From Adhaeribacter radiodurans (GTDB taxonomy: Bacteria > Bacteroidota > Bacteroidia > Cytophagales > Hymenobacteraceae): 64,000 nucleotides of DNA. Positions 50,786 through 63,602 of the stretch are shown here, in pieces. Where the stretch lies: assembly GCF_014075995.1 (NCBI RefSeq), contig NZ_CP055153.1, positions 1,922,001 through 1,986,000 on the forward strand. Direction: 5' to 3'. Position 1 is the first letter of the stretch. Every line of letters starts with the position of its first letter. The notes below the pieces were generated by a model. That model did not search any database, had not been told where the DNA came from, and worked only from the letters and a program-made list of their open reading frames with translations. The translations under genes were made by a program, and so were the position numbers.

Positions 50786-51566
50786 AACAAGTAAAATTAT
50801 AAGAGTATAAGTTATTTTGGTTTACGAACGGGAACAGTATGCCAGATGCCGGTATAAATAGTTAGACTAAATATTTATTTTAGGGCAATAAGTGTTTTGG
50901 TTCTGATATGATTTTGATTATTAATTTTCTGCCAGCTCTTAAAAGGAGTACTAAACGCCTTCGTTCTGAATGGCTACTTGGCGTTATTATTGTTTTAAAA
51001 AGCGAGATTACAGGAAGTAATTTGATTAATCAACCCTATTTTTAGAATTTAAAATTAAACTCAAACTCAAATTAAATAGTAAAAGAACCTTGGATGGTTC
51101 AAGACCTGTAGTTAAAAACAGGATTGTTGGAAATAAAAGTTTAAAACAATTTTTATTCTTACTTCCGTCATCCTGGAAGGATTTAACCAATTTAGAGTGA
51201 CTGCCGTAGTGTTTTCTAGAAAGTTTTAGCAAGTAATCCCCCTTAATACCAACAATCCGTTCTTCTTTTCTGCCGGTTAGTTCCTTTTAGGATGACAAAA
51301 TTGGAAGAAGTAGCTACAATCAAACTATTGTTCCGGCTGGTTTTCGACATTCCTGTTTTCAATACCTACCGGATTGGTTTCTTTTTAATATTATTAGAGT
51401 ATTTAGTAAATACTACCTGGTATTAATTATGGAGATGGCTTAAAAAGGAAATGAGATACCAAAGACCTGGAAATTCCACTTCTTTTGGTATCTCATTACT
51501 CCGATATTTCACAAAACGCCTTAGTCCGCTTAGTTAATGACTAGAAAATAAATTAGTAACTAGCCG
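50786..51566. other. 781-base intergenic region
   Basis: No supported gene; a 68-codon minus frame near 51026-51232 is low-complexity and probably spurious. It contains a TTTAGTAAA copy (51402-51410) and the strong terminator of the AhpD/TonB operon (51440-51497). Confidence 0.55.
51440..51497 (-). terminator. Terminator of the AhpD/TonB/MFS operon with nested hairpin
   Basis: A perfect 14-bp stem (51450-51463 with 51484-51497) surrounds a 20-base loop. That loop holds its own palindrome, TGGAA-A-TTCCA (51468-51478). On the minus strand a T-rich stretch (TCCTTTTTA) follows. It lies 70 bases after the last gene of the operon. Confidence 0.7.
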
Positions 51567-52118
51567 CTAAGTCCGTAAGTCAGTGGCAATATACCCTTCG
51601 GCGGCGCGTTGCGGGGCCCGGTTCACGTAAAACTGCAAATCATCGGGTGCCCAGGTAGCTAAACCATCTACGTAGCGATTGAACATACAGAAGGCGGCCG
51701 CAATTAAAACTGTATCGTGGATTTCGCGGTCGGTAGCGCCTAAGTTGCGGGCTTGCGCTATTTGATTGGAGGTTACCTTTTGGCCGCTTTGCTGCACGCT
51801 TCCGGCAATAGTTAGTAAGGCTTTCATCTTTTCTGATAAGTCAGCGGAGGAAAAATCTTTTTTAATTTCTTCAATGGTTTGAATATCGCAATGCAAATAA
51901 TGGCCGGCCAAAGCGCCGTGTACGTGCTGGCAGAAAAAGCAGTTGTTCAGGTAAGACACGTACGATCCAATTAATTCGCGTTCGCCGCGGCTTAGGGTAT
52001 TATCATCCGAGCGCAGCAGCGTTTCGGCTAAGGCGTTTAAGTGTTTGGCTGTATCGGGCTGGTACGCCATTAAACCCCGGATTCCGGGTAATTCGTTATT
52101 TAAATCAATATGAGCCAT
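51567..52118 (-). CDS. AhpD-like carboxymuconolactone decarboxylase-family protein (3 of 3)
   Basis: A 183-residue all-helical protein. The redox motif CFFCQHVH (C-x-x-C-x3-H) sits after a conserved RELIGSYVSYLNN. The C-terminal part has the repeated ending AAFCMFNRYVDGLATWAP. Members reduce peroxides with the CxxC pair or act as decarboxylases. This copy follows the second AhpD gene by only two bases. The three copies of the operon share the plan PGIxxL...QDSA/PDT...LLR...CxxCxxxH...NRYVDGL. Confidence 0.9.
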   Translation of the reverse strand: MAHIDLNNELPGIRGLMAYQPDTAKHLNALAETLLRSDDNTLSRGERELIGSYVSYLNNCFFCQHVHGALAGHYLHCDIQTIEEIKKDFSSADLSEKMKALLTIAGSVQQSGQKVTSNQIAQARNLGATDREIHDTVLIAAAFCMFNRYVDGLATWAPDDLQFYVNRAPQRAAEGYIATDLRT

Positions 52119-52120
52119 TT

Positions 52121-52678
52121 TTAAAATTTTAGGGCGGGTTGCGGGGTAACATAACCGTGTTCAGCCAGGCGTTCGCCCATGGCAGTATAAGCAGCATCAT
52201 CGGTAGGTGTTAAAGTAGCCAAGCCATCTACGTAGCGGTTAAACATACAAAAGGTGGCAGCTATTAGTACTGTATCGTGGATTTCGCGGTCAGTAACTTC
52301 CAATTCCCGGGCAGCGGCAATATCCTCAGGCAGTACAGCTTTACCCAATATTTGCGTTTTACCGGCAATGTGCAATAAAGCTTTAAGCTTCGGGCTAACC
52401 TCTGCCTGTTGCATATCCGCCAAAACAGCGTCTACGTGGTGCGCTTCTTCGGTGCCGTACAAACACCGGGCTGCGGCGGCGTGGCTGTTTCGGCAAAACA
52501 TACATTTATTTAAATGCGACACGTACGTGGCAATCAATTCCCGGTCAGCGGCCGGAAGCGGCGACTCGCCCCGCAATAATACTTGCGCCAGATTATATAA
52601 ATGTTGCCCGGTGTCGGGCCGGAACATTGCCAGCGATCGAATTCCCGGTACTCCTTCCGGAACGTTAATGTGAGCCAT
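52121..52678 (-). CDS. AhpD-like carboxymuconolactone decarboxylase-family protein (2 of 3)
   Basis: I set the start at the ATG at 52678 (MAHINVPEGVPGIRSL), which aligns with its neighbour MAHIDLNNELPGIRGL. The longer frame to 52759 has a poor extra 27 residues. This gives 185 residues with CMFCRNSH as the redox motif and ATFCMFNRYVDGLATLTP near the C-terminus. It lies 279 bases after the MFS gene, so it may have its own promoter, and two bases before the third copy. Confidence 0.9.
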   Translation of the reverse strand: MAHINVPEGVPGIRSLAMFRPDTGQHLYNLAQVLLRGESPLPAADRELIATYVSHLNKCMFCRNSHAAAARCLYGTEEAHHVDAVLADMQQAEVSPKLKALLHIAGKTQILGKAVLPEDIAAARELEVTDREIHDTVLIAATFCMFNRYVDGLATLTPTDDAAYTAMGERLAEHGYVTPQPALKF

Positions 52679-52957
52679 AGTTCTGTGTATTTTAAAAATT
52701 AGTAAATTATGAAAGGTTAGATAAATTAATTTTTGACTGTTAACCCACCGAAAACTCAATACCTGAAAAAACCAAGCATCAAGTTTCCAGCGGAACTACA
52801 GATTTTGAAATTTGGCTTTGGATTAGCCAGGTAAAGGATTGATTAACCAGTTTGCAGTAAATTTTTACGATTGCTTTTGGGATAAAATTTAAAAATCTAT
52901 CGCCAAAAGCTTCCCCCGATAATGAAATTTGTTATGTTTCTGAAGTTTTCATAAGCG

Positions 52958-54226
52958 TTAATGCTCCGTTTCAGGAGTAAATCCCTGTTTATCTTTCAGG
53001 AACAATACTACCAGCAGGCCAACCAGAAAAACTAAGGAAAACAGGAAAATAGCGTTACCGTAGCCGCCCAACTTGGAAACCAAGATGCCTACCAGCAGAA
53101 CCGCCGAAGCGGTAAACAAGCGGCCAATATTAAAACAAAAACCCGTAGCAGTAGACCGGATGCCCGTTGGAAACAACTGCGGAACATACACCGACAAAAC
53201 ACCCTGGCTCAATCCAAAAAACAACGCCAGTACCATAATCTCGACGTAAATAATGGACGTAAATACCTGGTTCGTTTTAAATAAAACAAACGACATGGCC
53301 GTGCAAACGCTAAAACACAACACCAACGACTGCCGCAGTCCCAGAAAACGAATAAGCCACCCCGACAGGAAACCGCCGCTTAAACCTCCCATTCCTAAAA
53401 ACATCATGCTGAGGCCCCGTTCGTGCGGCGCATCCGTAGCAATCAGGCTTTGTACCCAGGTAGGTAACCATGAGAATATGGCCCATAAACCAATGAGCAT
53501 GGCCCCAAATGTTAAAGAACCGCGGAGCAAAGCAGCACGGTGGGTCGCGGAAAACAACGCAGTTAAGTGTGGCTCTGATGTTTGGTTTTCGCGGCGGTAA
53601 GCCAGCCATTTACCTGATTCCTGCACGAACCAGATGCCCACTAAAGCCAGGATTAAAGGTATTAGTCCGATTAAAAACCCGGCCCGCCACGATGCCACCG
53701 TGTAATTAAGCAAACCTGCCGAAAAAATACCCACCGGAAAAGCAATGGACAATATACCCGTAAAAATTGCCCGGTTACGAGCAGGCCACACTTCGTTGAG
53801 CAAAGTAAACGAAACTACCAGTACGCCGCCTACCCCAAAACCACTCAGAAAACGGCTAATGACTACTACTCCCCAGGTAGGTGCCAAACCAGTAGCCATG
53901 GTAAACAAACCATAAAACCCAATCGCCAGTAGTAAAGCTTTTTTGCGCCCAAACTTATCGCTGATTAGTCCCCAGGAAAAACCTCCGAAAGCCCAGCCAA
54001 AAATAAACATAGCATTGATGTAGGCACTGGTATCGCTGCCAACTGCTAAGCTGGCACTACCCTGCAAATCGGCAATTACAATCGGCAGATATACAGCCAT
54101 TAAAGTAGAAACCGTGCCGCCCAGGGCACAACTAATAAAACAAAGCAAGAACAAAACAGTCCGGTAGCGTTGTCCGGTTTGGTCTTGGCGGGTAGCTAGT
54201 TGGGGGGGTAATACTGTGGTATCCAT
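52958..54226 (-). CDS. MFS transporter
   Basis: A 422-residue major facilitator with 12 membrane segments. The signature DKFGRKKALL follows segment 2 (GFSWGLISDKFGRKKALLLAIG). The cytoplasmic loop and the inner segments are typical of sugar-porter/aromatic-acid type permeases, but the substrate is not determined. It begins four bases after the TonB receptor gene, so it probably moves the same ligand across the inner membrane. Confidence 0.93.
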   Translation of the reverse strand: MDTTVLPPQLATRQDQTGQRYRTVLFLLCFISCALGGTVSTLMAVYLPIVIADLQGSASLAVGSDTSAYINAMFIFGWAFGGFSWGLISDKFGRKKALLLAIGFYGLFTMATGLAPTWGVVVISRFLSGFGVGGVLVVSFTLLNEVWPARNRAIFTGILSIAFPVGIFSAGLLNYTVASWRAGFLIGLIPLILALVGIWFVQESGKWLAYRRENQTSEPHLTALFSATHRAALLRGSLTFGAMLIGLWAIFSWLPTWVQSLIATDAPHERGLSMMFLGMGGLSGGFLSGWLIRFLGLRQSLVLCFSVCTAMSFVLFKTNQVFTSIIYVEIMVLALFFGLSQGVLSVYVPQLFPTGIRSTATGFCFNIGRLFTASAVLLVGILVSKLGGYGNAIFLFSLVFLVGLLVVLFLKDKQGFTPETEH

Positions 54227-54230
54227 GTGG

Positions 54231-56999
54231 TTACTTTAATAAGTCGTTGAAAATAATAGACACATGGTAAATGGCGCCAATCGCCGGCGAACCGTAGGTC
54301 TGGTATACCTGATTATTAAATAAATTGCTAGCCCCTAATTTTAAAGTGGAATTGGCTTTCGGTAACTTTTTGCTGATCTGAGCATCTACTAAAGAATAGG
54401 CTTTAATACGACCAGGCTGGTTGCCGTTGAATGTGCCGTACCAGTCAAAAGCGCTTTGCCAATGCCAGGCCAGGTTAAAACCAAAATCTTTAAATACGTT
54501 GGGATTACCTAAGGTAACATTGGTGCTGTACTCGGGAGTGTTGAAGGCCGCAATGTTGTCGCGGTTCGCATTTTTTAAATTAAAATCGGCCCAGGTAATG
54601 TTGCCACCCACGTTGTAGCCTTTGTTCAGGAGATAAGTCAGCGATAGGCCGGCGCCTTGTGAAGATACTTTATCGGGTGCGTTGGTATATAGCTGAAAGG
54701 CGTGCACTTTGCCGTTTAAAATATCAGTAGCCGCATCGAAATTAATATTGCCGTTAGCATCGTACACGTTGTTCTGTGGCTGAATGACTACCGTATTTAA
54801 AATAAAATCGGTGTACGAACTATAGTAATAATTAACATCTACCAATAATTTGCTGGCCAGGTAACTTTTATAACCTACCTCAAACGCTTTTTGCTGTTCC
54901 GGCTTAATGTAGGCCACATTAGATTTTTGCAATAAATTTAAATTTTCGGCTACCGCTTGCGGAAAAGGTTTACCACCGCCCGCAGCTGCCCCAAAAGCTC
55001 CACCGAAAGCACCTACCGAAGCGGCCGTAAACGAATTTTCGTACACGTTTAAGCCCCGACTGTTTTTAGGTGCACCCCCCAAAATAGTAATCGGCCCCAC
55101 GTTTAAATTAATAAACTGATCTACGGGAGTAGGATTGCGGAAGCCGGTTTGGTACGATGCCCGGAAGTAATGCATTTTATTGATCGCGTAGACGCCCGAA
55201 AAACGCGGCGTAAAGTTGCCTTTAAAATTTTCGTTTTTGTCGTAGCGCAGCGAGGCGGTTAGTTTAAGTTTATCGTCGAATAACTTTTTGGAAGCCTGCA
55301 CAAAACTACCGTATTCTTTAATCGTAATTTTCTGGTTTTTATCGTCGAACAAACTGCCGTTGGTAAACATATCGTAGTACCGGTAACTACCCCCGGCCAG
55401 CAACTCTACTACTTTAGTAAACTTGGTAAAATCGTATTGTCCTTCGGAATGGTAAAATTTACTATTACTAAACACGCCAGCCCCGCTTAAACCATAGTTA
55501 TGAATAGAAGCATCTTTAGCCTGATCAAAAGTAGCGGTACCGGGTAAAAACCGCCCTTGGTCGGCAAAGGCGCGGGCAGCCGTATGGTTGTTGGCCGTTA
55601 CGCCCGTAGCACTTCCGTTAAACGCGTGGGAATAACGGGTAAACCACATATCGTCGGCCTGGGTGGGGGCAACGGTTTGGCCGTCCAGGTTTTGTACCCA
55701 ATCGCGGTTTATAAACTGAGCCAGCGAGCGCGTATTGTACGAATCGTGGGAGTTCTCTGATACGGCATAGTTGCGCAGGAAAAAATTACTGCCTTTTAAC
55801 TCAGCCCGGTGGGTTTGCAGTACAAAATTATTTAAATCGAAGCGGCTGCTGCCGGTATAACTCGCCGTTCCCCGCCCATAGTTATATTGATAAATGGCTT
55901 CCAGGTTATTCGAAATCCGGTAATGTAGCGCGCCGTTTAATTTCAGGCTGTATACATTATAATTCATCAGATCTTTTTCTTCGTAACCGGTGCGCGATAC
56001 CAGACCAATACCCGGCAAAGTGCGCGATACTTCGTCGCCGTAAATATTTAGAGCATCCCGGCCCGGGTTATTAGGTCCGCGCTGCGCGGGGGCAGTTTGG
56101 GCACTTACATCGGTAAAATTAGTAGCGTACCAATCTACCCCCGACAAATAAGAAGCGTTGATTTTAATTGCGAACCGATTGTTAAAAGCTTTGGCGTAGC
56201 GGGCAGCAAAATCGTACAAACCCTTGGGCTGCACTTCGTTTTCGCCGAGGTGGTTCAGGCCGGCTTTGGCTTGCACTGTTAAACCTTGGTAGGTAAACGG
56301 ATCTTTGGTGCGCATCGATAGCAGTCCATTAAATGCCACTGGGCCGTACAAAGCCGAAGCCGCACCCGGTATAATTTCCACGCTTTCCACGTCAATATCG
56401 GACGCGCCGAACTGGTTGCCCACGGAAAAATTAAGGCCGGGCGTTTGGTTATCTACGCCGTCTACTAACTGCAAAAACCGGGAGTTGCCGGTACTGTTAA
56501 AACCGCGGGTATTTACCTGTTTGTAGGTAATGCTGCTGGTTACAGCTTCTACCCCTTTTAAATTTTGCAGGCCATCATAAAAAGTAAAAGAAGGATTTTC
56601 CTGAATGGCTTGGGTAGTCATTTTTTCGATACTAACCGGGGATTCCAGGATTCCTTCGTTCACGCGGCGAGCCGCAAAAACCATTTCGTTGAGCTGTACC
56701 GATTGGGGCTGCAAGGCAATGTTTATGGTTTGGCCCGAGGTTGTAACGGCCACTTCCTGCCGCTCAAAACCTACCGATGTAATTACCAGGTTAAACGGCA
56801 ATTTTACTTTTGGAACGGATAGGTTAAAGATGCCTTCGCGGTTGGTAATGGTACCGATCAAATTATCTTTTACGGAAATACTTACGCCGCGCAGTGGTTC
56901 TTTGGTGGCTGCGTCGGTAATGGTGCCGGAAACTTGAGAGTCCTGGGCGAATAAGGAAAGAGAGAAAAAAGAGAAATATAGGAGTAGGATTGCTTTCAT
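54231..56999 (-). CDS. TonB-dependent receptor of the AhpD/MFS operon
   Basis: A 922-residue outer membrane receptor. Signal peptide (1-18), carboxypeptidase-regulatory-like domain (about 24-105, GTITDAATKEPLRGVSISVKDNLIG), plug (about 115-230, MVFAARRVNEGILESPVSIEKM, RGFNSTGNSRFLQLVDGVDNQTPG, VESVEIIPGAASALYGPVAFNG) and a 22-stranded-type barrel ending in a hydrophobic NDLLK tail. No STN domain or nearby sigma/FecR pair, so it is a transporter rather than a signalling receptor. The ligand is unknown. It begins 20 bases after the first AhpD gene. Confidence 0.94.
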   Translation of the reverse strand: MKAILLLYFSFFSLSLFAQDSQVSGTITDAATKEPLRGVSISVKDNLIGTITNREGIFNLSVPKVKLPFNLVITSVGFERQEVAVTTSGQTINIALQPQSVQLNEMVFAARRVNEGILESPVSIEKMTTQAIQENPSFTFYDGLQNLKGVEAVTSSITYKQVNTRGFNSTGNSRFLQLVDGVDNQTPGLNFSVGNQFGASDIDVESVEIIPGAASALYGPVAFNGLLSMRTKDPFTYQGLTVQAKAGLNHLGENEVQPKGLYDFAARYAKAFNNRFAIKINASYLSGVDWYATNFTDVSAQTAPAQRGPNNPGRDALNIYGDEVSRTLPGIGLVSRTGYEEKDLMNYNVYSLKLNGALHYRISNNLEAIYQYNYGRGTASYTGSSRFDLNNFVLQTHRAELKGSNFFLRNYAVSENSHDSYNTRSLAQFINRDWVQNLDGQTVAPTQADDMWFTRYSHAFNGSATGVTANNHTAARAFADQGRFLPGTATFDQAKDASIHNYGLSGAGVFSNSKFYHSEGQYDFTKFTKVVELLAGGSYRYYDMFTNGSLFDDKNQKITIKEYGSFVQASKKLFDDKLKLTASLRYDKNENFKGNFTPRFSGVYAINKMHYFRASYQTGFRNPTPVDQFINLNVGPITILGGAPKNSRGLNVYENSFTAASVGAFGGAFGAAAGGGKPFPQAVAENLNLLQKSNVAYIKPEQQKAFEVGYKSYLASKLLVDVNYYYSSYTDFILNTVVIQPQNNVYDANGNINFDAATDILNGKVHAFQLYTNAPDKVSSQGAGLSLTYLLNKGYNVGGNITWADFNLKNANRDNIAAFNTPEYSTNVTLGNPNVFKDFGFNLAWHWQSAFDWYGTFNGNQPGRIKAYSLVDAQISKKLPKANSTLKLGASNLFNNQVYQTYGSPAIGAIYHVSIIFNDLLK

Positions 57000-57019
57000 T
57001 TTAAATGTTTTTTAAAAAA

Positions 57020-57580
57020 TTATTTTTTAAGGTGATCGTAGCCTTGGGGCAAGCGGGTATAACCATGGTCCACGAGGCGTTGCGCGAGCTGGTCATAGTA
57101 GGCCGGTTCCGCTGGCAAAGCAGTAGTCAGGCCATCGACGTAGCGGTTGTAGAGGCAAAACAAGGCGGCTATTAAAACAGTATCGTGGATTTCTAAATCG
57201 GTAGCACCAGCAGCTTTGGCTTGGGCAATAATCTCGGGCGATACTAGTTGACCGCTTTGCCGCACTAAATCCGCAATGGTGAGCAGCACCTTCATTTTAA
57301 AGCTTAGTGGTGCGGTGGCCACATCTTCTTTTACTTGTTTCGTTAGATTGGGGTCGCCGAGCAGCAAATCGGCAGCGGCGGTGTGGGCCGTGGTGCAAAA
57401 CGTGCATTCGTTACCCGATGATACCACTGTGGCAATTAGTTCGCGTTCGGCTTCGGTGAGCGTAGAAGGGCCGCGTAGCAACACTTGGGTTAAATGGCGG
57501 ATAGGTTCGGCGGAATCTTGCCGGTATTCGAGCAAGCCGGTAATGCCCGGCAAATGCGCTTCCAGAGGAATATAAGACAT
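57020..57580 (-). CDS. AhpD-like carboxymuconolactone decarboxylase-family protein (1 of 3)
   Basis: A 186-residue protein and the first gene of the operon. The motif is CTFCTTAH after ERELIATVVSSGNE, and the end is ALFCLYNRYVDGLTTALP. It is more diverged from the other two than they are from each other. The TonB receptor follows 20 bases downstream. A redox or dehydratase-like role on the imported compound or on peroxides is inferred only from family and context. Confidence 0.9.
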   Translation of the reverse strand: MSYIPLEAHLPGITGLLEYRQDSAEPIRHLTQVLLRGPSTLTEAERELIATVVSSGNECTFCTTAHTAAADLLLGDPNLTKQVKEDVATAPLSFKMKVLLTIADLVRQSGQLVSPEIIAQAKAAGATDLEIHDTVLIAALFCLYNRYVDGLTTALPAEPAYYDQLAQRLVDHGYTRLPQGYDHLKK

Positions 57581-57852: not shown

Positions 57853-58407
57853 TTAACAACGGTTCTCTGGCGGTTCGCCGGGAACATCAAACGCCAAAGG
57901 AATGGGCGCACATGAAAGATAGGAGATATAAGAATTGGCCGTAGCAATGGGCGCAGCAAATTGGTAATCTATGGTTTTAAAGTCGTACTCGCTGAAGATT
58001 CCGCTTTTTTTAATGGTACTACCTGTTTGATTTTTCTTGCTTTGAGGCAGATCGTTTACGTGTTTCGTATAAGCTACACGGGCTTTACTTAAACGTTGCG
58101 TTGCCCGGTTAGGCAAACATTGCAAGTAAATAGTATCTTTCTCAATTTTGCGCTTCACGTAGGTGTATAAAACGCCCTTAATTTCTACTTGCCCGTCAAC
58201 CCGTTCATAATCGGGCCGGTCGGTAATGTAGGGTACAGAAATCGGAATTTTAAATTGGATCAGCTCACTTTCCCGATACTGGTTTAAGTCCAGTCGCGCC
58301 ACCAGGTTGGTATCCGTTTGGTAAATAAAATATTGGAACAACAGAGAATAGCCAGCTATGTTGAATAGATGAATCGCGAGTAGACCAATGGCAAATAATC
58401 GTCTCAC
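57853..58407 (-). CDS. Small envelope protein upstream of the AhpD operon, uncharacterised
   Basis: A 184-residue protein with one N-terminal membrane or signal segment (about 5-30, FAIGLLAIHLFNIAGYSLLFQYFIY). A beta-rich middle part follows (IQFKIPISVPYITDRPDYERVDGQVEIKGVLYTYVKRKIEKDTIYLQC). The tail is proline-rich with two cysteines (SCAPIPLAF...ENRC). Similar unnamed proteins occur near TonB receptors in Bacteroidetes. It is on the same strand as the AhpD operon, 272 bases ahead of it. I know no function. Confidence 0.65.
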   Translation of the reverse strand: MRRLFAIGLLAIHLFNIAGYSLLFQYFIYQTDTNLVARLDLNQYRESELIQFKIPISVPYITDRPDYERVDGQVEIKGVLYTYVKRKIEKDTIYLQCLPNRATQRLSKARVAYTKHVNDLPQSKKNQTGSTIKKSGIFSEYDFKTIDYQFAAPIATANSYISYLSCAPIPLAFDVPGEPPENRC

Positions 58408-58783: not shown

Positions 58784-61009
58784 TTAAAGCAGTTTATCTA
58801 AAGTAATAGGTAAATCGCGGATGCGTTTGCCCGTAGCGTGGTAAACAGCATTGGCAATGGCAGCGGCTGTACCCACAATACCAATTTCTCCCATTCCTTT
58901 TACCCCCAATGGATTCACAATATCGTCGTGCTCTTCCACGAAAATTACTTCCAGGTCCTGAATATCAGCATTTACCGGTACGTGGTACTCGGCTAAATCG
59001 TGGTTAATAAACCGGCCGTAAGTAGGGTCCATCACCGATTCTTCTTCCAGGGCCATACCAATACCCCATACAATACCCCCTAAAATCTGATTACGGGCTG
59101 TTTTCGGATTAATCACCCGACCACCTGCAATAGCACTTACTACTCTTGAAACTTGTACGGTGCCAAAATCTTCGTCCACCCGAACTTCCACAAATACTGC
59201 CGAATGCGTGAACATGGAAAATTTCTTTTGTTTTGATTCTGGCGAGGTAGTAACCAAGGCTTCCATAAAGTTCTGGCCGGTTTGCTGCATAACTTCCGTT
59301 AATGTCATGGACTGAGCTGGATTACTTTTTAAAGATATTTTACCATCAGCAAAAATTACTTCTTCTAAGCGGTGTACTCCTGCTAAAGGTGAATTTTCTA
59401 GTTTGCGGATGTGGGCAATTAATTTTTCCTGAATACCCTCGCAAGAGGCTTTTACCGCTGAACCTACGGAAGCAGCCGTCCAGGAGCCACCTTCCAAGGG
59501 AGATTCGGGCAAGGAAGTATCACCTAGTTTAAAAGTAACATCTGTCAAGGGCAAGCCTAACGTTTCGGCGGCAATCTGGGTCATAATGGTGTAAGTACCC
59601 GTGCCTATATCGGCGGTAGCACTGGAAACTTTTAATTTACCATCAGCGGATAAAAATGCTTTAGCGGTGGCTTTTTGCTGTTTTATTTCCCAGGCACCGG
59701 TAGCCATACCGTACCCAATTAAGATTTTGCCTTCGCGCATAGATCGGGGCTCAGGATTACGTTTATTCCAGCCAAATTTTTCGGCTCCTTGCCAGTAACA
59801 TTCTTTTAATTCTTTGCTGGAATAAGGTTTATTTTGGCTCTGGTCAAGGTCGGAGTAATTGATAAAACGCAATTCTAATGGGTCTACGCCTACTTGGTAC
59901 GCTAGTTCGTCCATGGCGCACTCCAAAGCATACATACCCGTTACCCCACCCGGCGCCCGCATGTCCAAAGGCGTGTAAGCATCTATTTTAATTAATTTAT
60001 GAGCCAGTTGTACGTTATCGCATTTATATAACATAGCCGACCAATTAACCAGGTTCTCCGTATAATCTTCGAATTGCGATGTTTCAGAAAAGCCTTCGTG
60101 CACCACGGCTTGTAAAGCACCATCCGGCGAAGTACCTAAAACTACCTGTTGCAAAGTAGCGGGTCGGTGACCAAACGAAAACATTTGCTGACGCGTTAAT
60201 ACCACCCGCACCGAACGCTTTAATTCCAAGGCGGCCATTACCGCTAAAAACAACTGGTATTGCGGCCGCAAACCCGAACCAAATGCCCCGCCTACAAACG
60301 GCGATATAACGTGTGCCTGTTCTTTGGATAAATTAAATATTTTAGAAATATACTTCTGGCTGTTTTGTACTCCCTGGGTTTTATCGTAAACGGTCAGCTT
60401 GCCATCTTCTTCTACAATTACCGTAGAAGCGTGCATTTCCATGGGGTTGTGGTGTTCGCTTGAATGAAAATATTCAGCTTCCATTTTAATTGCTGATTCG
60501 CCTAACCCTTTTTGAGCATCGCCGCGGGGCGAAGGTTCAGCAGATTTATATTCTTTGGGGGTGTAAGCTTCGGCTTTCCGGGCTTTTATTTCAGTTACGG
60601 GAGTTTCGGTTTCGTAAGTTACTTCCACCAAGGAGGCTGCAATCCGGGCTAACTCAAAAGTATCTGCAACAACTAAAGCAATAGGTTGCTGACTGAACAA
60701 AATTTTATCGTCGTACAGGGGTCGAAAGGGTGCACCGGGTGGAGCATCTTCATCCTGATAACTTTTATCGAACCAAGCCAAACCGGGCCGGTTTTCGTGG
60801 GTAAACACTTGCAAAACGCCGGATAGTTGCAGGGCTGCTTCGGTATTTATTTTAGTAATTCTACCTTTGGCAATGGCACTGGAAAGTACCACGCCGTAGG
60901 TTAAGCCTTCCTGATAAAATTCGGCGGCGTATTTTGCTTCGCCGGTTACTTTAGCCCGTCCGTCAACGCGGCTGGTAGGTTGGCCAATATAGCTGGTGCT
61001 TGTCTCCAT
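58784..61009 (-). CDS. Molybdenum hydroxylase large subunit (PaoC/YagR-like)
   Basis: A 741-residue xanthine-dehydrogenase-family subunit that binds the molybdenum cofactor. Visible landmarks are GEAKYAAEF at the N-terminus, HNPMEMHASTVIVEEDG, FVGGAFGSGLRPQYQ, MRAPGGVTGMYALECAMDELA, GSWTAASVGSAVKASCEGI and the catalytic Glu in GVKGMGEIGIVGTAAAIANAV. It oxidises an aldehyde or N-heterocycle with water as oxygen donor. The start shares its base with the stop of the FAD subunit. Confidence 0.95.
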   Translation of the reverse strand: METSTSYIGQPTSRVDGRAKVTGEAKYAAEFYQEGLTYGVVLSSAIAKGRITKINTEAALQLSGVLQVFTHENRPGLAWFDKSYQDEDAPPGAPFRPLYDDKILFSQQPIALVVADTFELARIAASLVEVTYETETPVTEIKARKAEAYTPKEYKSAEPSPRGDAQKGLGESAIKMEAEYFHSSEHHNPMEMHASTVIVEEDGKLTVYDKTQGVQNSQKYISKIFNLSKEQAHVISPFVGGAFGSGLRPQYQLFLAVMAALELKRSVRVVLTRQQMFSFGHRPATLQQVVLGTSPDGALQAVVHEGFSETSQFEDYTENLVNWSAMLYKCDNVQLAHKLIKIDAYTPLDMRAPGGVTGMYALECAMDELAYQVGVDPLELRFINYSDLDQSQNKPYSSKELKECYWQGAEKFGWNKRNPEPRSMREGKILIGYGMATGAWEIKQQKATAKAFLSADGKLKVSSATADIGTGTYTIMTQIAAETLGLPLTDVTFKLGDTSLPESPLEGGSWTAASVGSAVKASCEGIQEKLIAHIRKLENSPLAGVHRLEEVIFADGKISLKSNPAQSMTLTEVMQQTGQNFMEALVTTSPESKQKKFSMFTHSAVFVEVRVDEDFGTVQVSRVVSAIAGGRVINPKTARNQILGGIVWGIGMALEEESVMDPTYGRFINHDLAEYHVPVNADIQDLEVIFVEEHDDIVNPLGVKGMGEIGIVGTAAAIANAVYHATGKRIRDLPITLDKLL

Positions 61010-62004
61010 TATGTTAAATCCTCCATTTTAGCAGCTTGTAAAATAGCCCGCACAATAGCGCGTTTGGCCAGTTCAATTTTAAAATTATTGTGTCCGTACC
61101 CTTTTGCTCCGGCTAGTAAAGCATTGGCAGCATTTTTTAAATTCTCCAAATTCACTTCTTTCCCTACCAGGCTAGCTTCCACTTCGGGTAGGCGCCAGGG
61201 TTTGTGCGCTACCCCGCCCAAAGCAAGGCGAGCTTCTTTTATAATGGTTCCCTCCAAATCTAAACCAACGGCAACTGATACTAACGCAAAAGCATACGAA
61301 GCCCGGTCGCGCAGTTTTAAATAAGTGTTGTACTCGGCAAAACCTTTAGCCGGAAGGTCGATGGACGTAATAATTTCGTCAGGGTCTAGATTGTTATCCA
61401 GGTGCGCGGTATTGCCGGGTAAGCGGTGAAATTCCAGGAAAGGTATGGTGCGTTCGCCATTGGGACCAGTTACTTTTACCGTAGCATCTAGGGCGGCTAA
61501 GGCCACCGCCATATCCGAAGGATGAACGGCAATGCACGACTCGCTGGTGCCTAAAATGGCATGAATGCGGTTAAAACCATTAATGGCCGAACAGCCGCTG
61601 CCAGGTTCCCGTTTATTGCAAGCAGTAGCGGTATCGTAAAAATAATAACAGCGGGTGCGTTGCAAAGAATTACCGCCGTTGGTAGCCCGGTTCCGTAATT
61701 GGGCCGATGCGCCCGCTAAAATTGCTTTAACTAAGAGCGGATAGCGGTTTTCTATTTGTTCGTTATAAGCCGTTTCGGCGTTGGTAGCCAGGGCCCCTAA
61801 GCGTAAACCTCCGGCATCATTTCCGGTAATCTGGTTAAAAGGCAAATGGCGGATATCAATTACATGGCTGGGTTGCTCCACGTTTACCTTCATCAGGTCA
61901 AGTAAATTAGTGCCGCCAGCAATAAAGCGGCCTTCCAGGCTAGTAGTTTTTTCCTGCAAGGCAGTTTCCAGGTTTTCTGCCCGGGAATAGGTAAAGCTAT
62001 TCAT
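61009..62004 (-). CDS. Molybdenum hydroxylase FAD subunit (PaoB/YagS-like)
   Basis: A 331-residue FAD-binding protein. The FAD motif is RFIAGGTNLLDLM, and LAGASAQLRNRATNGGNSLQRTRC is a second conserved segment. Cys119, 129, 138 and 157 are placed as in the PaoB branch, which carries an extra [4Fe-4S] cluster. It passes electrons from the Fe-S subunit to the acceptor. The start overlaps the end of the Fe-S subunit gene by eight bases. Confidence 0.94.
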   Translation of the reverse strand: MNSFTYSRAENLETALQEKTTSLEGRFIAGGTNLLDLMKVNVEQPSHVIDIRHLPFNQITGNDAGGLRLGALATNAETAYNEQIENRYPLLVKAILAGASAQLRNRATNGGNSLQRTRCYYFYDTATACNKREPGSGCSAINGFNRIHAILGTSESCIAVHPSDMAVALAALDATVKVTGPNGERTIPFLEFHRLPGNTAHLDNNLDPDEIITSIDLPAKGFAEYNTYLKLRDRASYAFALVSVAVGLDLEGTIIKEARLALGGVAHKPWRLPEVEASLVGKEVNLENLKNAANALLAGAKGYGHNNFKIELAKRAIVRAILQAAKMEDLT

Positions 62005-62533
62005 TTATATCGCCTCCTTCCTTTTGCCATACTTCCTGCACTGCTGCCAGAATATTGGTGTAAGCGCCGCACCGGCAAATATTACCGCTCATTAAGTCTT
62101 TTATTTCCTCAGTTGTTTTGGCTTTTCCTTCCGAAATTAAACCGATGGCCGAACAAATTTGACCGGGGGTACAATAGCCGCATTGGTAGGCATCGTGCTC
62201 GATAAAAGCAGTTTGCATGGGGTGCAGTTCGTCGCCTTTGGCCAGGCCTTCGATGGTAACAATATCGTTACCTTCTTCCATTATGGCGAGAGTAAGGCAG
62301 GAATTAATGCGGGTGCCATTTACTAAAACTGTACAAGCACCGCACTGGCCGTGGTCGCAACCTTTTTTAGTACCGGTTAAATGCAGGTATTCCCGTAAGG
62401 CATCTAATAAGGATACCCAGGGAGCGAGTTGCAGCTTTTTTTCGGAACCGTTTACCCGTAAGGTAATAGTGTGGGTGGGAGGCAAACCAACAACCGGCTT
62501 ATCTAAAGCTCCCTTTTCGGCAATTTTTTCCAT
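61997..62533 (-). CDS. Molybdenum hydroxylase [2Fe-2S] subunit (PaoA/YagT-like)
   Basis: A 178-residue protein with two [2Fe-2S] clusters. First cluster: Cys59, 64, 67, 79 (KGCDHGQCGACTVLVNG). Second cluster: Cys118, 121, 153, 155 (YQCGYCTPGQ and GNICRCGAY). PaoA of E. coli has a Tat signal; this protein has no twin-arginine signal, so the enzyme is probably cytoplasmic. It is the first of the three subunit genes. Confidence 0.95.
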   Translation of the reverse strand: MEKIAEKGALDKPVVGLPPTHTITLRVNGSEKKLQLAPWVSLLDALREYLHLTGTKKGCDHGQCGACTVLVNGTRINSCLTLAIMEEGNDIVTIEGLAKGDELHPMQTAFIEHDAYQCGYCTPGQICSAIGLISEGKAKTTEEIKDLMSGNICRCGAYTNILAAVQEVWQKEGGDINE

Positions 62534-62606: not shown

Positions 62607-63602
62607 TTAGCCTTCGAAAAGCGGCACTTTAAAAATGTTAAATTCCAGTTCGGAAATATCTCCCTCCATCTGGTGAATGCGGGAGGTAGTTACATAAAAA
62701 TTATCCTGCTCATCAATGGTAAAGGTGTCAGGCCATTTTAACTCGGTATCCTGCACCAAAGTTTTTAATTCTCCTTCCGGAGTCCGGTACAGCACCGCGT
62801 TTTTTTCTAAATCGCCCAAATACAAATTGCCCAGGTGGTCGAACATCATACCGTCGGGAGCGGAGGTTTTGCCCAGATTTTCTACTTTTCCCGCTAATTC
62901 TTCTTCGCTTAAACTTTCATCATTTAGGGCCTGAGTAGGTACGCGGTACAAGGTATAACCGGTTAAGGCATGATAGTACAAGTATTGTTTATCCGGCGAA
63001 AGCGCAATACCATCGGCGTGCATTTGCGGTTTCTCACCTTCTTTTACCCATTTTTCGCCTTCCACGGTTAACCACACATCTTCGGATTTGGTAGAAGAAT
63101 GGTTATCTAATAAACGGCGGGGGATATTAGTTTTTAAATCTAAAACCACAATGGCTCCAATGCCCGACTCGGTAATGTAGATTTTGCCGGCTTCGCGGTC
63201 GATGCGTAAATCATTTAGGTAAGATTTTTCCGGGGCAATAGTTTTATCGAACGTCCATTTATTAATTAATTCGTTGGTGGTTAAATCGAACTCATACAAC
63301 ATGGCGTTGCCTACTACACCTTTCATCATGGGACTGGCTGGGTCCAGCACAAACAAAGAATTTTCGTGCGCTACTACGGACTGCACGCAGGTAAATTTAT
63401 TTTCCTCGGGTTTGCCGTTCCAGGTATTCCATTCGGCATTGGGGTAGGGGTGGTACTCTCCATTCAGGTTAACTTCCACTACCGAAAAAGGCAGGTTTTC
63501 GTGCCACCGCGGAAAATTGGCGAATAAGCGTCCGTGGGTGCTGATGGTAACGCCAGTTACCTGAATTCCTTTAAAGGAAGCTACTTTGGTTATTTCTTTC
63601 AT
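62607..63602 (-). CDS. Major royal jelly protein/Yellow-like beta-propeller
   Basis: A 331-residue six-bladed beta-propeller without a signal peptide. Blade motifs include FANFPRWHENLPFSVVEV, YLNDLRIDREAGKIYITESGIGAIVVLDL, MHADGIALSPDKQYLYYHAL, TSAPDGMMFDHLGNLYLGDLEKNA and WPDTFTIDEQDNFYVTTS. This is the MRJP/Yellow family, found in insects and scattered bacteria, whose bacterial role is unclear. It lies 73 bases upstream of the molybdenum enzyme genes and 43 bases after the TPP enzyme gene. Confidence 0.85.
   Translation of the reverse strand: MKEITKVASFKGIQVTGVTISTHGRLFANFPRWHENLPFSVVEVNLNGEYHPYPNAEWNTWNGKPEENKFTCVQSVVAHENSLFVLDPASPMMKGVVGNAMLYEFDLTTNELINKWTFDKTIAPEKSYLNDLRIDREAGKIYITESGIGAIVVLDLKTNIPRRLLDNHSSTKSEDVWLTVEGEKWVKEGEKPQMHADGIALSPDKQYLYYHALTGYTLYRVPTQALNDESLSEEELAGKVENLGKTSAPDGMMFDHLGNLYLGDLEKNAVLYRTPEGELKTLVQDTELKWPDTFTIDEQDNFYVTTSRIHQMEGDISELEFNIFKVPLFEG

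Follow-up and report, generated by a model that had tools for sequence, protein, structure and literature searches.

A conserved Bacteroidota operon of three AhpD-like proteins, a TonB-dependent receptor and an MFS carrier, with a genomic link to haloperoxidase-type genes

Introduction

Several described systems come close to the operon reported here: the peroxidase-related AhpD proteins, the debrominase Bmp8, the vanadium-dependent haloperoxidases and the TonB-dependent uptake loci of the SusC/SusD and single-receptor kinds. For Bmp8, part of the account in PMC5577590 gives bromide removal, with cysteines proposed to form a disulfide, and in part of PMC7918430 the protein is termed a CMD homolog and a dehalogenating enzyme and elsewhere a decarboxylase, its step also being called a decarboxylation. 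Here we analyse a 64,000-nucleotide stretch of Adhaeribacter radiodurans (contig NZ_CP055153.1, positions 1,922,001 to 1,986,000; hereafter the window), in which five minus-strand genes at 51567-57580 encode three AhpD-like proteins (A, B and C), a TonB-dependent receptor (T) and a major facilitator superfamily carrier (M). The reading that we favour, with a rough probability of 0.5, is that of a mobile uptake-and-redox operon, linked to haloperoxidases, through which an organic anion would be imported and treated in the cytosol by three CxxC enzymes. The operon is undescribed in the open-access full texts searched, most subscription papers lying beyond that search.

Results

The five genes follow each other in the order A (57020-57580, 186 aa), T (54231-56999, 922 aa), M (52958-54226, 422 aa), B (52121-52678, 185 aa) and C (51567-52118, 183 aa), with intergenic gaps of 20, 4, 279 and 2 bases, as a first-pass annotation made from the letters alone had stated; coordinates, open reading frames and Pfam domains agree with it. 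For B the ATG start was taken, the mechanical reading frame beginning at a TTG further upstream. A, B and C match Pfam CMD above its cut-off and carry both CxxCxxxH (C59, C62 and H66, B numbering) and NRYVDGL, the two motifs that the same annotation had seen in all three, while T, which would be an outer-membrane importer, has Plug and beta-barrel domains, both over cut-off, along with CarbopepD_reg_2, and M matches Pfam MFS_1. The strong terminator said to close the set is also supported: a hairpin with a U-rich tail at 51442-51502 on the minus strand (stem-loop about 51447-51502), which a simple scan did not list, folds at -26.9 kcal/mol (z -4.5), and none of 200 shuffles did as well. What had been overlooked is a conserved sixth gene, h (57853-58407, P0006 family), encoding a leader protein in the same direction, 272 bases upstream of A.

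Homologous loci were collected by scanning the genome_contigs collection with B, which was the sole search key, so that the other genes were not selected for; the best 80 of 84 relatives were kept. Window proteins were placed by tblastn, which located B in 76 of the 80 loci (the four others were dropped), and after removal of 13 loci with too little flank, 63 remained, each flanked by 5.6 kb or more upstream and 1.5 kb or more downstream. Apart from B, the gene most often present in these is M (61 loci), followed by C (60), A (59), T (51) and h (39). T was counted at a minimum of 40% identity, the weaker matches in L050 and L070 being SusC genes of 28-29% identity. The order A-T-M-B-C on one strand, intervening genes being permitted, recurs in 46 of the 63, all gaps being at most 600 bases in 39 of those, and in 32 of the 63 h stands ahead of the ordered five as well. 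These order counts rest on the tblastn placements; the gene caller lost some B genes by over-extending their neighbours. A chance or strain-specific gene order is thus ruled out, and the survey supports a conserved unit common to several orders. The hetero-oligomer of B and C suggested in the first-pass annotation is hypothetical; another gene separates B from C in, for example, L010, L042, L051, L055, L069, L070 and L080, which weakens the idea of an obligatory pairing of the two.

All five genes occur together in 57 loci, namely the window, five related-genome regions and 51 of the 80; the named orders are Chitinophagales, Sphingobacteriales, Cytophagales, Flavobacteriales and Saprospirales, to which one contig filed under the actinobacterium Williamsia (L006) is added. 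This last locus contains the entire operon, at 62-77% identity, and clusters with Chitinophagales rows; it is probably a misbinned contig. Distribution across Bacteroidota is patchy: 26 of 395 phylum genomes, our own included, match B at E 1e-20, and the three paralogs are found in three of seven congeners (G003, G005 and G006), with no such set among the 29 remaining genomes of the family.

The three paralogs share 47-49% identity with each other, and a search of our own genome with A at E 0.001 returned only A itself, B and C. In a tree of 85 rows from 26 hand-chosen loci they form three clans, with bootstrap/SH-aLRT values of 100/100, 100/94 and 100/90; they are distinct, maintained lineages, separate across orders, and a recent tandem duplication of one AhpD gene is therefore excluded. 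An active-site alignment of 257 rows (78 A, 83 B and 96 C, near-copies included) has E47, N57, H66, H134, D135 and N147 invariant throughout; C62 is kept in 256 rows, the sole exception being a B row, and C59 in 245 (69 of 78 A, 80 of 83 B, 96 of 96 C). Selenocysteine in place of cysteine was considered and rejected: the in-frame stops in B of L016, C of L068 and in G088 do not fall at the catalytic cysteines, and that in G333 is the gene's own stop.

No signal peptide was seen by eye in A, B or C. Against the peroxidase-related model TIGR01926 (curated cut-off 81.8 bits), C scores 91.0, A 81.6 and B 81.5. NCBIfam includes a PcaC-type equivalog model. No model of that type matched up to E 0.001 in the NCBIfam search, the only decarboxylase match being the broad Pfam CMD. 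The AlphaFold2 model of B, the one paralog modelled, has an all-helical AhpD fold (pLDDT 93); Foldseek places 3c1l, 6k40, 2pfx and 2prr first (TM 0.73-0.76), with Bmp8 (6ohi, 6ohj) lower at TM 0.67-0.69 and 13-15% identity. A sequence profile gave no match to Bmp8 even at E 10, so the relation to that enzyme is one of fold. The decarboxylase label in the first-pass annotation is just the name of the Pfam family; in CxxC motif and in closest structures the proteins are of the peroxidase-related AhpD type.

Two arrangements of AhpD-like genes in distant lineages were also seen. L123 (G333:C17:160001-180000) runs parallel to the operon: four consecutive AhpD-like genes stand with an MFS gene and a TonB receptor other than T (23% identity), together with what by eye is an FG-GAP-type gene and with a haloperoxidase-like gene in which SAH replaces SGH. 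L128 and L129, from one distant family, each have a lone C-like AhpD gene after genes that by eye resemble class III aminotransferases.

T scores 79.4 bits against the SusC/RagA model TIGR04056, under its cut-off of 368.25. Its best NCBIfam match, the TonB-haemin family, is far under cut-off, and its plug resembles that of the colicin I receptor at E 4.3e-12, a match confined to the plug region. For M, the best subfamily of the 25 listed is TIGR00895 (aromatic acid/H+ symport), at 159.9 against a cut-off of 418.55; SLC22 organic-ion transporters are the top solved relatives, and GlcP and others are among its 41 matches. Nine of the 63 loci hold A-M-B-C without T, and in four of them (L007, L022, L051 and L070) SusC/SusD genes lie nearby; they also occur near the operon in L050, where the operon genes are in a different order. 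The outer-membrane component is thus exchangeable. A near-constant M and A-B-C with a swapped outer-membrane part fit an import system.

The link to vanadium haloperoxidases comes from two neighbour clusters in the relatives, c5 and c7, both PAP2-type. The full vanadate-binding signature (K-x6-RP, SGH, SR-x5-H) is present in 27 of their 29 genes, or 25 of 27 without L119, apparently the same genome as L077; all are on the operon strand. One representative of each cluster finds haloperoxidase 4cit, which we take to be from Zobellia, as its best solved relative (E 4.7e-42 and 2.4e-15), and by eye many of the N-termini resemble lipoprotein signals. PAP2-superfamily acid phosphatases share parts of the vanadate site, and the signature alone is not proof of halide oxidation. 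Haloperoxidase-type genes occur in 16 of the 63 flanked loci: six from Runella, one each from Segetibacter, Terrimonas, Emticicia, Larkinella and Rhabdobacter, and five from metagenome bins. With an assumed 2% chance per locus, this count greatly exceeds expectation, with a p of about 1e-13, or 4.6e-6 if only nine cases are taken as independent, both figures being rough because the loci are related. Six genomes have 3-8 PAP2 matches in haloperoxidase-size frames, some with two matches per frame. As an observation apart, a full-signature gene is found in eight of eight loci (L048, L072, L073, L075, L076, L077, L080 and L082) whose A has a threonine variant described below.

The sixth gene, h, is single-copy in our own genome, and its homologs form a 56-gene cluster in 51 loci. 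Neither Pfam nor NCBIfam gave a match up to E 0.001. The protein starts with a membrane-type helix, continues with a small beta domain and ends in a loose tail that carries a PP motif at the C-terminus; in the AlphaFold2 model (pLDDT 79) these are a helix at 2-40, strands at 50-99, a helix at 101-118 and a low-confidence tail, and a fold search with this model returned a best PDB match of only E 0.11. Across 40 aligned rows G19, G72, P179 and P180 are invariant, the PP pair standing near the C-terminus in every row. A profile search (E 1e-5) found h in 64 of 395 phylum genomes, in 9 of 26 with AhpD genes versus 55 of 369 without (Fisher p 0.014). Six AhpD-bearing genomes hold 14 h genes in all: 8 of these have a haloperoxidase-size PAP2 frame less than 10 kb away and 7 have AhpD genes nearby, 2 being near both and 1 near neither. 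Furthermore, 10 of 20 hand-picked regions around h homologs hold a full-signature haloperoxidase gene, often in the arrangement h - barrel - haloperoxidase. The gene caller had missed h itself in two of the 20 regions, L188 and L192, the second of which is among the 10.

To place the operon among its relatives, a concatenated tree of the five proteins was built from 45 of the 57 loci, 12 (mostly near-copies) being omitted by hand. Our own genus lies inside a 17-row group made up of Sphingobacteriales, Chitinophagales and the Williamsia-filed contig; none of the 14 Cytophagales rows falls in it, and two Sphingobacteriales rows (L055 and L059) are placed among Cytophagales. Third-position GC content (GC3) ranges from 0.49 to 0.54 in the five core genes, compared with 0.37-0.45 in the 23 listed genes before the operon. 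Tree placement and the GC3 contrast together suggest that the operon arrived by transfer.

One member of each of the 20 recurring neighbour clusters was run against Pfam, rarer clusters lying outside this annotation. The neighbours named include DUF3179, PAP2, a methionine-synthase-like gene, two SusD clusters, a SusC-type receptor, a second TonB receptor, HIT, FG-GAP/ASPIC, an RND efflux pair, a SnoaL-like gene and an ABC ATPase, as well as a polysaccharide deacetylase in four loci; no ring-cleavage or iron enzyme is named among the 20. Besides h, four clusters had no match over the Pfam cut-off (c6, c10 and c17, with c13 matching under it), and c6 and c10 are barrel-like by eye. A DUF3179 gene joins the cluster in 29 of the 63 loci, possibly a low count given the older gene calls. 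An ASPIC/UnbV-type FG-GAP protein, a gene of about 123 aa and DUF3179 stand downstream of the operon in L009 and L019, and after an h homolog in L173, whose fetched stretch has no operon. A short gene (about 355 aa) resembling cobalamin-independent methionine synthase occurs both inside AhpD operons and in haloperoxidase clusters (L010, L051, L070, L080, L178 and L192).

In the window, three co-directional, overlapping genes of the xanthine-dehydrogenase/aldehyde-oxidase type lie directly upstream of the operon (58784-62533), their subunits being, by eye, large, FAD-type and iron-sulphur-type. As operon partners these genes were rejected: they are absent from the displayed neighbourhoods of L114 and L116, and L115 has one c52 gene near the operon. 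The M/B spacer (52679-52957, minus strand, 279 bases) has a similar length in three congeners, its sequence likeness being mainly with the nearest one. A search of it for a conserved regulatory element gave no strong block beyond that congener.

Discussion

Five genes of recurrent order, three of them distinct paralogs, now stand as a unit shared among Bacteroidota, and it can fairly be inferred that the import genes and the AhpD enzymes act on one compound. We propose that the operon moves as a unit between Bacteroidota, and that a small organic compound would pass the outer membrane through T and then be brought into the cytosol by M, an organic-anion-type MFS carrier. There the cytosolic A, B and C would act on the compound or its products in three steps that are not interchangeable, each through a thiol relay of Glu, CxxC and His. 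This chemistry would most likely be reductive, a peroxide oxygen or a halogen being removed as a disulfide forms. The leader h could be a membrane-anchored partner of such systems. Since some relatives adjoin haloperoxidase-type genes and h is common to separate haloperoxidase clusters, the compound probably derives from organic matter altered by haloperoxidases. Bmp8 chemistry and the haloperoxidase neighbours make reductive dehalogenation or hydroperoxide reduction of haloperoxidase-derived compounds our leading ideas, and dehalogenation by the AhpD-like trio is possible by analogy. The first-pass annotation had held the chemistry not to be deducible; the haloperoxidase link narrows it, and the proposed substrate and reaction are putative.

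A number of observations weigh against this proposal. No full-signature haloperoxidase gene was found in the fetched stretch of 47 of the 63 flanked loci, and our own genome has no haloperoxidase-size frame near the operon, the nearest being 1.49 Mb off. The first cysteine is replaced by threonine in 9 of 78 A rows, from Runella, Larkinella and Rhabdobacter (two of the nine, L077 and L119, appear to be one genome); a two-cysteine relay is therefore not universal, and A in those loci would be, judged by its sequence, a one-cysteine variant of the enzyme. M may work in the direction of export. Spacers of 272 and 279 bases stand before A and B. The h family is more widespread than the AhpD genes (64 versus 26 of 395 genomes, at differing cut-offs), and in L175, L179 and L180 a homolog stands ahead of another TonB receptor with no haloperoxidase, so h may mark outer-membrane systems in general; moreover, the six genomes of the 14-gene count were chosen for their AhpD genes, and the adjacency of h and AhpD is partly selected. 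As for transfer, the placement of our own genus with Sphingobacteriales (SH-aLRT 93) comes from a quick, unrooted tree with no bootstrap, GC3 also reaches 0.49 at 62607-63602 outside the operon and is only 0.44 in h, and a high GC3 may reflect expression.

Peroxide defence is an unlikely alternative, though one with clear points in its favour: the trio would be organic-hydroperoxide reductases acting on oxidised molecules drawn in through T and M, or on lipid peroxides, with the haloperoxidases that adjoin it in some relatives as a second peroxide sink. The nearest structures to B are indeed AhpD/peroxidase-related, C passes the TIGR01926 cut-off with A and B short by 0.2-0.3 bits, and haloperoxidases use up hydrogen peroxide. 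Nonetheless, such a defence needs neither a dedicated TonB receptor and MFS carrier, which are present in 51 and 61 of the 63 loci, nor three distinct paralogs, and most relatives do without the genes, as a search with B at E 0.001 hit only 15 of 59 genomes. A bolder version of our own proposal is a shade less probable still, and we mention it as a speculation: vanadium haloperoxidases on the cell surface, or from other organisms, would halogenate organic matter or break it open, and the operon could be the cytosolic half of this two-part halogen system of Bacteroidota, importing the halogenated acids and taking off their halogens one step at a time through three reductive dehalogenases of AhpD fold, thiol-based and free of cofactors, each of which would serve one position or intermediate.

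We find it hard to credit aromatic-acid catabolism, in which the AhpD-like proteins would serve as carboxymuconolactone-decarboxylase-type lyases or isomerases of a ring-cleavage pathway supplied through an aromatic-acid/H+ symporter. The Pfam CMD match shared by the trio and the best subfamily of M speak for it; however, no ring-cleavage dioxygenase or similar enzyme is among the 20 annotated neighbour clusters (four of them, besides h, unidentified), CxxCxxxH is the AhpD redox motif, and M falls far from its subfamily cut-off (159.9 versus 418.55). Least probable appears metal or siderophore uptake, with T as a siderophore or haem receptor, M as the inner-membrane carrier and the AhpD-like proteins modifying the siderophore. 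It could draw on the TonB-haemin match of T, itself far under cut-off, and on the plug like that of the colicin I receptor, yet this likeness is confined to a common plug domain, and the 20 annotated clusters include no ferric reductase, haem enzyme or Fur-type gene.

What looked like one strain's odd operon is a module common to several orders, with testable chemistry, and the unnamed membrane-protein family h gains a context at haloperoxidase, AhpD and TonB loci. If the trio does remove halogen or peroxide groups, Bacteroidota of soil and water would possess a way of handling haloperoxidase products that tolerates oxygen and needs no cofactor, and the route through the AhpD trio would be part of the natural halogen cycle.

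Comparison with known systems

The likeness to the vanadium-dependent haloperoxidases 4cit and 4usz concerns only neighbours in relatives, with none in the window, and both the activity and the halide of those neighbours are putative. Bmp8, a cysteine-dependent reductive debrominase of the CMD family, has its fold in common with B, and the bmp cluster, as listed in part of PMC7918430, names no TonB receptor or MFS carrier, unlike the operon. SusC/SusD and single-receptor uptake loci are like the operon in grouping a TonB importer with presumed cargo enzymes; in contrast to them, no glycan enzyme recurs among its annotated neighbours apart from the polysaccharide deacetylase, T lies under the SusC/RagA cut-off, and a near-constant MFS carrier and AhpD-type enzymes are present. 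The peroxidase-related AhpD proteins of TIGR01926 (3c1l, 6k40, 2pfx, 2prr and 2oyo) have the same fold (tested with B), length and E / CxxC / H site, whereas here A and B remain just under the family cut-off and an import gene set has three diverged paralogs as a fixed part.

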